From NCBI GenBank assembly GCA_020720045.1, contig DYPH01000054.1:1-36782 (forward strand): DNA of 36,782 bases, in the 5' to 3' direction. Of this stretch, positions 476 through 3,947 are shown in pieces (within the stretch, counting starts at the first letter, position 1; the number at the start of each line of letters is the position of its first letter). The notes under the pieces were generated by a model. It had not been told where the DNA came from and ran no database searches. It worked only from the letters and a program-made list of their open reading frames with translations. Origin of the DNA: Sorangium cellulosum (GTDB lineage Bacteria > Myxococcota_A > Polyangia > Polyangiales > Polyangiaceae). Position numbers and translations under genes: made by a program.

Positions 476-681
476 CATCGACGCGCCGCGACCTGCCATC
501 GACGCGCCTCCGATCACCTTCCGACGCGTGTTTGAAGTCATCGACGCGCGTTTTGAGTCATCGACGCGCCTCCGAAGGTCATCGACGCGTGTTTGAAGGT
601 CATCGACGCGTGTCGGAAGGGCATCGATGGGTGAAATTCGCCCCCGGACGCGCGTCGATGAGGGGTTCCGGCGCGTCGATG
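476..681. repeat. 21-bp-period direct repeat array with two inverted copies
   Basis: The decamer CATCGACGCG, or a close variant, begins at 476, 497, about 519 (CCGACGCG part only), 539, 559, 580, 601 and 622 (CATCGATGGG). Steps are 20-22 bp, almost exactly two helical turns. The inverse, CGCGTCGATG, follows at 651 and 672, again 21 bp apart. Spacer sequences are also related (TGTTTGAAGGT or CCTCCGAAGGT). The array fills most of the 302-bp divergent space between the HTH/WYL gene (start 435) and the NTPase gene (start 738). One face of the helix would present 7-8 half-sites, as for a cooperatively bound regulator array. On the minus strand the period also gives a short heptapeptide repeat, but the 20- and 22-bp steps break the frame, so a coding origin is less likely. 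Confidence 0.8.
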
Positions 682-737: not shown

Positions 738-1907
738 ATGGATGAGCGTCTGGAACGATTTCGCGCATGCATCGCGCGCGTAAACCCCGCAGGGAAGCCC
801 AAGGAGGACATCGACCGTGGTCTCTACATCGAGCCACCGGGCACCGGCGTCGGGCGGCAGCTCGCAGCACGCATTCAGCTTGCGCCGCTGCGACCGCGCG
901 TTGTCGTTGGGGGAATCGGGACCGGGAAGACGACGGAGATGTTGATCGCCGCCGCCGAAATATCGCGTGGCGACACGTTGGGAATCTACGTCGATGTCAG
1001 CCTCAGACATCGCATTGACAAGCCGCGTAGCGGGGTCCTTCTCGCTCTCGCCGCCTTGGAGGTCGCGTCGCGAATTCCCGAGTCTTCCGTTGACGCAAAC
1101 GTTCAACGTCAGAAGGAATACCTCAATGAATGGGCGAACGGCTACTTCGACTATGGTGACGAACCACCGGATCAATATGAGCCGCCCTTTATCGATGGTG
1201 TGTTGAGTTCGCCGGACTCACCGCTCCCCCACGCGATGGCAGTGCAGGTGGAGAGACTGAAGGGGTTCCAGGCACTCGTTGGTGTTCCCCGAGTCGTCAT
1301 GCTCTTCGATAGCCTCGATCGTATTTCCGACCTCAAGTCGCTTCACCGTTTGCTCTACGACGACCTTCGCGCGCTCGCGCTCGCCGGAATCGGGTGCGTC
1401 ATCGTGGCCCCTTCCCGCACTCTTTATGCCGAAAACCGCGAGATTCTCGACATGTTTGAAGGCATTCATGTTCAGCCTGCACTTGATGTTGAGCGTGACG
1501 CCATTGCGCGACGGTTTCTTGAGCAGCTCCTCGCCGCCCGACTTGCTCCCGACTTCGCGGCTCCGGAGGAAATCGCGGCCATCACGCTTGCGTCCGGCGG
1601 AATTTTGCGGGACGCGGTCAGCCTTGCTCAGCTCGCCGTGGAAAACGCCTTCGCGGCGGGGCGCGATGCCCTTCTTAGCGACGATGTGGTCGTTGCTGTC
1701 GAACAATTTGGTCACCAATTCGTCACCGGACTTCGTGCACCTGAACTTGAGAAGTTAAGGCGGATTGACGCCTTCGTCCCCGTTGACGACAGCGATTTCG
1801 CACTTCTTCGGAGCCGTCGGATCGTCGAATATTCGGGAGTTCCGAGCCGCTACGCCGTCCACCCGACGTTGCGCCCAATTCTGAAGAAGATGGCGGGGCC
1901 AACATGA
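738..1907 (+). CDS. P-loop NTPase (AAA/STAND-like) of a three-gene cassette
   Basis: A 389-residue protein with a Walker A motif GGIGTGKT at residues 58-65, followed by TEML as in AAA/KAP-like ATPases of bacterial conflict systems. A Walker B strand VVMLFDSLDR lies at 186-195. After it comes a GCVIVAPSRTLY strand, as in AAA/STAND cores, and a C-terminal helical part that resembles a winged-helix lid. No transmembrane segment, signal peptide or fused effector domain is seen. The start at 738 has only a weak ribosome site, and the repeat array ends 56 bp upstream. Its stop overlaps the next gene by 4 bp (ATGA), so translation is probably coupled. Third-position GC looks lower than in the flanking chromosome, which suggests transfer. 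Role inferred: nucleotide-driven sensor or switch for the next two proteins. The NTPase fold is solid; the system role is not. Confidence 0.85.
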   Translation: MDERLERFRACIARVNPAGKPKEDIDRGLYIEPPGTGVGRQLAARIQLAPLRPRVVVGGIGTGKTTEMLIAAAEISRGDTLGIYVDVSLRHRIDKPRSGVLLALAALEVASRIPESSVDANVQRQKEYLNEWANGYFDYGDEPPDQYEPPFIDGVLSSPDSPLPHAMAVQVERLKGFQALVGVPRVVMLFDSLDRISDLKSLHRLLYDDLRALALAGIGCVIVAPSRTLYAENREILDMFEGIHVQPALDVERDAIARRFLEQLLAARLAPDFAAPEEIAAITLASGGILRDAVSLAQLAVENAFAAGRDALLSDDVVVAVEQFGHQFVTGLRAPELEKLRRIDAFVPVDDSDFALLRSRRIVEYSGVPSRYAVHPTLRPILKKMAGPT

Positions 1908-2605
1908 ACACGACTGACACACTCGTCCGCAAACTTACGCTGAACGCCGGTATCTTCTGTCTGGTTGCGCACTCGGACGCATTTCTGCATCAAGTAGAGG
2001 CGCTCAAAGAGCCGCTCCAGCGACGGGCCTTGGTTGTGGATACCGCCGAGCGATTGCAGGTAAGAATGCTCCGGCAATCCGTGCAACCTGGCCATCTCCG
2101 GGTGCTTTTCTCGGACCAGAACGACCGGCAATTTTGGCAGGATATCGATAGCAACCGTTCGATGTTGAACGAGAACCGATCGGTCCTCCTGGTGGTTACC
2201 TCGGAGGCTCACCAAGCGATGGTAGCCTCCGCCGACAACCTCATGAGTTCCTTAGGAGGCGCCGTCATCGAAGCGAGGCCCCGCGAAAATATCGAAGCGA
2301 TGATTTTCGCTGGCAAGATTCGTGAGGCACGTTTGTACGCAGCTGAGCAGACGGCGATGGAACTTGGAGGGCTTGGACGTATGCTTGCACCGCCGACGAC
2401 CAAATCTCGACCCGCTTCGGGCGGCGACCATCTGGAACGGAGTCACGCTTGGCTCCGCGAGCATCGGAACGAGCATCGCGGGCGCTGGGTTGCGCTGCTT
2501 GGGGATTCCCTGATCGGGAGCGATACGGGCCGCAAGGCACTTCAGGCGGTCGTGAATGCGCACCCGAGCGCCCACAAAATCCTGGTCTCGTGGATTGCGC
2601 CATGA
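1904..2605 (+). CDS. Alpha/beta-domain protein with DUF5678-like C-terminus
   Basis: This 233-residue protein starts on the ATGA overlap with the NTPase gene and ends on an ATGA overlap with the protease gene. Residues 65-125 (LRVLFSDQ, FWQDIDSNRSML, NRSVLLVVTSEA, then ADNLMSSLGGAV) follow the pattern of an alpha/beta domain that accompanies P-loop NTPases in conflict operons: a short helix with a xLNxxR-like segment, a hydrophobic strand, then an AxxLxSxxGxV segment. Residues 181-233 (AWLREHRNEHRGRWVALLGD, then strand KILVSWI) resemble DUF5678, a small domain often encoded beside retropepsin-like proteases, which fits the next gene. A flexible linker (160-180) joins the two parts. Inference: adaptor between the NTPase and the protease, with the tail as possible protease partner or substrate. 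No catalytic motif was recognised. Confidence 0.7.
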   Translation: MNTTDTLVRKLTLNAGIFCLVAHSDAFLHQVEALKEPLQRRALVVDTAERLQVRMLRQSVQPGHLRVLFSDQNDRQFWQDIDSNRSMLNENRSVLLVVTSEAHQAMVASADNLMSSLGGAVIEARPRENIEAMIFAGKIREARLYAAEQTAMELGGLGRMLAPPTTKSRPASGGDHLERSHAWLREHRNEHRGRWVALLGDSLIGSDTGRKALQAVVNAHPSAHKILVSWIAP

Positions 2606-3054
2606 AGCGAACTACGCCGTCCGCATCGTGGTGCTCGGGCTGGGCCGAATACATTGTGGATCAGCCAGTTAACAATCATCAGCTCGTAGTGGGTGTCTCC
2701 TGTCGCATCGCTGGCCTCCCGAACATCGAGCACGCGCTGTTGGATACCGGAGCGCAATGGTCGCTCGTTGGCGGTGAGCTGGCTGAACTCATGGCGGAAT
2801 TCGCCGAGGACCTGGACCAACCCATCCCGTATTCCACGCGGTTTGGGCGGATCGAAGCTCGGGCCTACCGCGCTTCGGTGGTCTTGGTCGCTTCATCCGG
2901 GGAGGACCTGGAAGTCGAAGCGACCGTGGCGCTCGCTCCCGATTTTCGCGGCCCGCTCGTTCTCGGGTATCGAGGATTTCTCGAAAAAGTTCGAGTAGCT
3001 CTGGTTCCTGCGACGTCGCAGGGCGAAACGGATTGGTTCGGTTTCGGCGGCTGA
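2602..3054 (+). CDS. Retropepsin-like (clan AA) aspartic protease
   Basis: A 150-residue protein. Residues 44-53 read HALLDTGAQW followed by SLV, the DTGA(x)xS signature of retropepsin-type aspartic proteases with catalytic Asp48. Near the C-terminus GPLVLGYRGFLEKV (118-131) matches the hydrophobic-hydrophobic-Gly strand and following helix that close the retropepsin fold. A single copy of the fold implies it would act as a homodimer. There is no signal peptide or membrane segment, so it is likely cytosolic. The start at 2602 is chosen because its ATG overlaps the stop of the upstream gene (ATGA). Longer frames starting upstream would overlap that gene by about 150 bp. The protease ends the operon; a 107-bp gap follows. 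Inference: the effector or processing enzyme of the cassette. Confidence 0.8.
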   Translation: MKRTTPSASWCSGWAEYIVDQPVNNHQLVVGVSCRIAGLPNIEHALLDTGAQWSLVGGELAELMAEFAEDLDQPIPYSTRFGRIEARAYRASVVLVASSGEDLEVEATVALAPDFRGPLVLGYRGFLEKVRVALVPATSQGETDWFGFGG

Positions 3055-3161: not shown

Positions 3162-3947
3162 ATGGCCGAGAAGAAGACGGGGAAGTCGTCGCGTCGCGTT
3201 GCGGTTACGCCGGAAAGCACGCCGACTCCTGAGCTGGAAGCGACCGTTTCTGATGAGGTTTTGAACGCGACCCCCGAGCGGGTGCTCAAGTTCCTTGTCG
3301 GGATTAGCTCCAACAAGAAAGCGCGCGCGGCGATGCAGGCTCGGGGCTTCTCCCAGGAAGATGCCGATGAGGCGTGGCTCCACTTGAAGGTACTTACCGC
3401 CTTTGAAGTGCCCGGAGAAATTCCCCGAAAGTCGATCGAAGATCGCGCGGCCGCCCACGCAGTTGCGACGCTCGATGCTTGGGATGAAGGGGGATTTCGC
3501 ATTGTGGAGGCGACGCTCCGGCGCCACTACCCGGCCCAGGCGGCGGCGGTCCTCGCCGGGATTTCGGCGTCGAAGGGGCCGGCGGCGGTCCTTGGGGTCG
3601 CGACGCTCCTCGATCGCATCGATGCCCTCGAAGCGGGCAGCCCGGAAGACCAGGCGGCCGCGGCGCTCCTTGCCAAGCGGGGCATCGATGCCTCCGAGCG
3701 GGCTCGCCTCAAAAAGCTTGTGGTTGCTGCACAAACGGCCGCCCCGGTCGCGGCGGCTGGGCCCGGGGAGGCCGATCGGATCCGCCGGCGGAACCACCTG
3801 ATTCAGCTCCGCGCCTGGTACGAAGAATGGACGGCCGTCGCCCGCGTCGCCATCACCCAGAAGGCGGCGCTCATCGCCCTCGGCCTCGCCCACCGGAGCG
3901 AAGCGCGGCGCGACGAAACCCCGGCCCCGAGCCCCGCCGACGGGTGA
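3162..3947 (+). CDS. Hypothetical protein, mostly helical
   Basis: A 261-residue protein without a recognised family. The start at 3162 has a good ribosome site (GAGGGAG, about 8 bases upstream); the frame is open further upstream but would run into the protease gene. The N-terminus is Lys/Ser/Thr-rich (residues 1-30). Then a helical region includes LKFLVGISSNKKARAAMQAR and GFSQEDADEAW (about 45-75), an Ala-rich middle, and a C-terminal LRAWYEEWTAVARVAITQ segment (about 220-240). Proteins with this WYxxWxxxAR ending occur as multi-copy families in myxobacteria as far as I recall, but that could not be checked. No signal peptide or membrane helix. It has its own terminator 24 bp after the stop and is probably transcribed apart from the cassette. 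Confidence 0.75.
   Translation: MAEKKTGKSSRRVAVTPESTPTPELEATVSDEVLNATPERVLKFLVGISSNKKARAAMQARGFSQEDADEAWLHLKVLTAFEVPGEIPRKSIEDRAAAHAVATLDAWDEGGFRIVEATLRRHYPAQAAAVLAGISASKGPAAVLGVATLLDRIDALEAGSPEDQAAAALLAKRGIDASERARLKKLVVAAQTAAPVAAAGPGEADRIRRRNHLIQLRAWYEEWTAVARVAITQKAALIALGLAHRSEARRDETPAPSPADG

Follow-up and report, generated by a model that had tools for sequence, protein, structure and literature searches.

What is the function of an array of short, evenly phased repeats in the intergenic region in front of an NTPase operon of the myxobacterium Sorangium cellulosum? The locus lies at the start of contig DYPH01000054.1 of the fragmented, 357-contig assembly GCA_020720045.1 (G000 in the following); the window is the entire stretch analysed, positions 1 to 36,782 of this contig. 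The array spans positions 476-681, which are noncoding according to codon-model gene prediction, and keeps a 21-bp phase throughout: eight direct units on the plus strand (476-631; starts at 476, 497, 519, 539, 559, 580, 601 and 622, with steps of 21, 22, 20, 20, 21, 21 and 21 bp) are followed by two exact inverted units on the minus strand (651-681; 651-660 and 672-681) that are 21 bp apart. The direct units resemble CATCGACGCG and six of the eight match it exactly; the unit at 519 is degenerate (TTCCGACGCG) and the one at 622 reads CATCGATGGG. Where the two orientations meet, a partial direct unit at 643 (7/10 positions) overlaps the inverted unit at 651 and forms a dyad (643-660, GACGCGCGTC); junctions of this type also occur in the arrays of C340 and of genus g14 described below.

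The array is clearly distinct from the background of the window. CATCGACGCG occurs 33 times with at most one mismatch (11.0 +/- 2.8 in dinucleotide shuffles), each of the eight exact copies falls inside the array, and autocorrelation at a lag of 21 exceeds that of local shuffles by 11.7 sd. The linkers are partly repeated as well, with a unit of approximately CATCGACGCGYGTnnGAAGGT. An earlier note on this DNA had described the repeats as eight direct half-sites at 20-22 bp steps plus two inverted ones 21 bp apart, and this description is confirmed; its statement that this is not a CRISPR array is correct as well. CRISPR arrays have near-identical repeats of 23-47 bp with unique spacers between them, unlike the window array with its 21-bp period, 10-bp cores and partly repeated linkers. 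Comparison with Rfam returned a single below-threshold chance match to a microRNA family, and no sigma-70-like promoter was found, in a scan that may not suit the host organism.

The same note held that an array dispersed over many unrelated intergenic regions would mark a general repeat family and not an operator. For the motif, this is not the case: arrays with the exact motif are present at only two loci of G000, the window and C340:9667-9872. A third exact-motif match (C108) is inside coding protein repeats, and the inspected matches from distant bacteria (L033, L037, L042) resemble IDAP-type coding repeats and are unrelated. The window and C340 arrays match unit by unit and share the 20-bp step, indicating that one was derived from the other by duplication. 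The C340 array is also present at the same locus of the sister species G001 (contig JAAFHJ010000095.1, 'Myxococcales bacterium'), with an equal number of units. Identity between the two arrays is 95.3%, compared with 83.7% at the fourfold sites of five neighbouring genes (10 changes in 211 array sites versus 139 in 855 fourfold sites, Fisher p 2e-6); the C340 array is thus under purifying selection.

For the architecture the answer is different, as the same design with other motifs does occur in many intergenic regions. Autocorrelation analysis of noncoding segments (about 1 Mb of G000 and 0.72 Mb of relatives, CRISPR removed) identified 45 significant arrays. The period is 20-22, 41-43 or 62-63 bp in 24 of these, where equal lags would give 15% (p 4e-9); this null assumes equal lags, and undetected coding repeats could contribute at 21 and 42, which are multiples of three, but 20, 22, 41 and 43 are not, and there is no rise at other multiples of three. 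None of 87 control segments from plasmids of Sinorhizobium, Rhodococcus and Cupriavidus has any significant array. Motifs vary by array family, with most families present at two to three loci of G000 and several also in G001: it is the design, with periods of about 21 or 41-43 bp, that is widespread across the order, and not the CATCGACGCG motif. Opposed units were found in 14 of the 20 arrays tested (some motifs are palindromic themselves), and one of 24 phased arrays lies between convergent genes, which is not significantly under background. In five species of genus g14, the cores of the family A array (see below) keep the 21-bp phase, the linkers vary, and the gene-proximal end has opposed units after a dyad (CCCCCGCGGGGG), the design of the window array with a different motif. 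The two-turn helical phase that had been proposed from the window is therefore real and recurs with unrelated motifs. We found no description of such arrays in the open-access literature, and they are apparently an undescribed class of DNA arrays. Near-perfect minisatellites of G000 have other periods, for example 32 and 45 bp (range 32-45); the 45-bp one (GCGGAATTCTCAACAACCGCGTCCGTCCGCGTAGCGGGAGACGGC) is dispersed over L059, L061, L066, L072, L143, L150 and L151 of this genome. The stretches at C132:59455 and C244:3536 of G000 are identical including the flanking genes, probably an assembly duplicate, and were counted once.

The array is positioned upstream of an operon, as previously suggested, and all four genes of this operon are on the plus strand. 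The first (738-1907) encodes a P-loop NTPase (AAA_16 only at E 0.07), the second (1904-2605) is an NTPase partner gene that occupies the same second position in cassettes of contig C87 and of G065, and the third (2638-3054) encodes a retropepsin-like aspartyl protease domain (PF13975, E 5e-4, under the Pfam cutoff). The fourth (3165-3947) encodes a helical protein of about 260 amino acids, a member of the array-associated family A and a candidate reader of the array. The NTPase was considered as the array-linked feature and rejected: of 183 genomes of the order, 10 have homologues, and an array lies directly upstream in only three cases; in the five g14 species the array accompanies the family A gene with or without an adjacent NTPase. 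The operon matched no PADLOC model; its style is that of the defence operons that face other arrays. A cassette of NTPase, partner and third gene has a patchy distribution (738-3054 of the window, L060:3-2328 and L222:365-2710); all three loci have phased arrays, and the third gene is retropepsin-like in the window. This cassette, which has no PADLOC match, may be an undescribed defence operon.

Family A was defined by homology of the window protein to the array-adjacent genes of C319 (E 1e-41) and G114 (E 1e-24), and a search by protein only found it in 41 of 108 genomes. When the 30 best loci were examined within 700 bp upstream of the gene, 17 of 29 testable loci, from about ten genera, had a phased array, and no period other than the phased ones was significant. 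Family B consists of two branches that are united by hhalign at E 1e-17: A5 (the gene abutting the C340 array) and A6 (the genes abutting the arrays of C293, C115 and C122 and the 42/43-bp array of C87). A relation between families A and B had been suspected by eye and was dropped, as profile comparison shows no detectable relation. Phased arrays are found upstream of 15/29 and downstream of 2/29 A6 loci, and upstream of 9/29 and downstream of 9/27 A5 loci, so that about half of all family B loci have an array on one side or the other. At control loci of the same genomes, in small control sets, there were none (0/24 upstream, 0/23 downstream). Altogether, 56 of the 63 significant arrays at family A and B loci are phased. 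The first members of both families were spotted beside arrays; the linkage tests used homologues from protein searches, and the linkage changes little when the seed loci are left out. In G000, five of eight testable family B genes that were found by protein search only are accompanied by a 41-43-bp array, each with a motif of its own. The genetic linkage of the arrays to families A and B is thus established.

Array and protein also vary together: across 19 family A loci, similarity of the units tracks similarity of the proteins (Mantel r 0.69, p 2e-4), a correlation that is confounded because inheritance of whole loci accounts for part of it. Neither family has a Pfam match, and profile searches against the PDB returned no convincing solved relative; family A has a weak, below-cutoff match to the 'PQLLE family' of NCBIfam and no homologues in plasmid or phage collections or viral contigs, and its AlphaFold model from a single sequence (mean pLDDT 45) is too poor for use. 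Several family B genes (L317, L315, L314, L322, L323), including some at loci with no detectable array, have defence-type ATPase, RloB-like and methyltransferase genes as neighbours.

Which genes do the arrays face? In G000 they include an ABC-3C system (PDC-M68B, 1e-155), HEC-01A/B (1e-102 and 4e-72), Cas3e of a type I-E operon (1e-196), an AriA/PtuA-like ATPase, Septu PtuA/PtuB (1e-123 and 1e-66) and a DrmMI/type IIG enzyme (7e-82). With PADLOC at 1e-15 and eukaryote-like kinases set aside, seven of 25 array-facing genes of G000 have a match, compared with at least two (AAA-type) of 114 control genes; the control count is a lower bound, as 25 of 77 families are among the matches listed, and Fisher's test gives p 8e-5, rising to 0.002 for six matching controls. 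The arrays of G000 are thus enriched beside known defence operons; in the relatives, a defence gene is not recognisable at many of the array loci. Part of contig C132 (L063, G000:C132:40001-60000) forms, together with L064, a dense defence island with several AAA ATPase genes, a HEC-01 pair, a cas operon of type I-E and a CRISPR array that is long and has a spacing of about 61 bp.

Several features point to a double-stranded array that binds protein: periods that follow the helical turn (21 and 41-43 bp), linkers that are degenerate, units that are opposed, and selection. The linkage between arrays and proteins makes families A and B candidate readers that may control the neighbouring operon. 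We consider it about an even chance (a probability of roughly 0.5) that the window array is a cis-acting double-stranded operator to which a cognate protein of family A or B binds cooperatively, thereby switching the operon. The units would form a row of protein-binding sites along one face of the helix, the cognate protein would polymerise or stack along them, beginning at the long row of direct units and proceeding to the short opposed one, and its assembly would switch the adjacent operon. The same would hold for a lineage-wide class of arrays whose units each span two or four helical turns, which often carry opposed units at one of their ends and which differ in motif; the most likely readers would be family A for 21-bp arrays and family B mostly for 41-43-bp arrays, and many of the operons controlled in G000 would be antiphage systems. 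Some observations argue against this reading: the family A gene of the window is 2.5 kb away from the array as the fourth gene of its operon, no array is detectable at about 40% of family A loci, at family B loci the array is upstream or downstream depending on the locus, and the scan for a sigma-70-like promoter mentioned above was negative.

An alternative reader is encoded next to the array. The open reading frame at 53-435 on the minus strand encodes the HTH N-terminal part of a WYL-type regulator (PADLOC WYL model, 4e-5), and WYL regulators govern defence operons in other bacteria; binding of this divergent product to the half-sites was the initial explanation, and the regulator would then repress the NTPase operon. 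This explanation is now improbable, and we no longer regard it as the leading one. The gene is cut: at position 52 it runs into the end of a high-copy insertion element (1-52, ...ATTCCGAGCAGCTACCTAGG), at which dozens of G000 contigs start or stop. There is no second copy of the reading frame in G000 and no homologue in G001, although G001 retains an array with the same motif; both the interruption and this absence argue against the WYL product as the binder. Moreover, the loci of WYL homologues in relatives, used as a control set, have no phased arrays. What persists of the original proposal is cooperative binding on one helix face, which is consistent with phase, position and selection, and what does not is the divergent HTH/WYL product as the binding protein. 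The terminal sequence of the insertion element is also found in the last ~52 bases of the window and breaks the assembly at many sites.

Other explanations do without a DNA-binding regulator of the operon. The repeats could be transcribed into a structured RNA that acts on the linked protein, either as its antitoxin or as a decoy, in the manner of type III toxin-antitoxin systems. In favour of this, the tandem repeats are noncoding and upstream of a single gene of unknown function, their unit sequence tracks protein similarity, the window array has a fold z of -7.7 and several 42-bp units contain palindromes. Yet the arrays of C340 and G001 fold differently at 95% identity, several phased arrays have no fold signal, the periods fall at helical-turn multiples, the units are degenerate and opposed, a simple consensus scan found no terminator in 380-760 of the window, and the linked proteins match no Pfam toxin family; we regard an RNA as unlikely. 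Slightly less likely still are structural or mobile minisatellites that expand and move from one intergenic region to another, have no regulatory role and owe their 21 bp to a mechanism of replication or of the nucleoid. The presence of array families at two to three loci per genome, the unit-wise correspondence of the window and C340 arrays as a duplicated module and the near-perfect minisatellites of 32-45 bp in the same genome would all agree with this, but the latter differ in period, exact-motif arrays are restricted to two loci, the phase is kept in five species, two specific protein families are linked while the controls are clean, and neutral evolution is at odds with the selection on the C340 array. 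Finally, the array could be a recombination site or transposon end at which phased transposase or integrase sites capture defence cassettes: ends of the Tn7/Mu kind have sites spaced 20-22 bp apart and in opposed orientation, and the motif families adjoin different cassettes. This is very improbable, as the direct units run straight into the inverted ones and enclose no cargo, the scanned flanking genes include no recognisable transposase or integrase, and the array has the same position in G001.

If the operator reading is correct, one odd array leads to a regulatory design of a whole lineage, with long arrays on one helix face and diversified motifs, and to two array-paired protein families with neither Pfam family nor solved relative. 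It would offer testable candidates for the control of defence systems in myxobacteria, which are rich in such systems, and natural matched pairs of protein and array for studying how DNA recognition diverges. A broader interpretation is possible, and we put it forward tentatively: the unrelated families A and B may have converged on one geometry, each protein reading its own diversified array, in an undescribed two-part system of Polyangiales-type myxobacteria. Such a system would be more than a local operator: defence islands would share it as a switch, or it would take an active part in them.

How do these arrays compare with known systems? WYL regulators of defence systems (BrxR/CapW type) bind short inverted repeats at the promoter, and the divergent HTH reading frame adjoining a defence-type operon is reminiscent of them; here, in contrast, the gene for the regulator is interrupted, and the array is retained without it. 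Type III toxin-antitoxin systems of the ToxIN type have near-identical repeats of about 34-38 nt that act as RNA. They share with our arrays the tandem repeats in noncoding DNA immediately before a single gene and a motif that diverges with the protein, and differ from them in the helical-turn periods, the degenerate and opposed units and the lack of any toxin-family match. Plasmid iterons and partition sites likewise consist of direct repeats, about 20-22 bp each, that share one face of the helix, but the arrays described here are found at many chromosomal loci with differing motifs, and no Rep/Par or other replication or partition gene was recognised among the array-facing genes in Pfam and PADLOC scans.

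The principle of the Escherichia coli protein RptR is among the closest: this small protein binds cooperatively to several direct repeats in the promoter of a defence operon (PMC12255303). Two elements of this principle are found here, several direct repeats in phase that precede an operon of defence type and a cognate protein linked to the array (17/29 and 15/29 loci versus 0/24 controls, with covariation), and cooperative binding would be the third likeness. RptR is gammaproteobacterial and its sites are three 9-bp repeats of a single motif with a TAGCTA palindrome (PMC12255303); the myxobacterial arrays, in contrast, have 5-11 units at spacings of two or four helical turns, include units in opposed orientation, and involve many motifs and other protein families.
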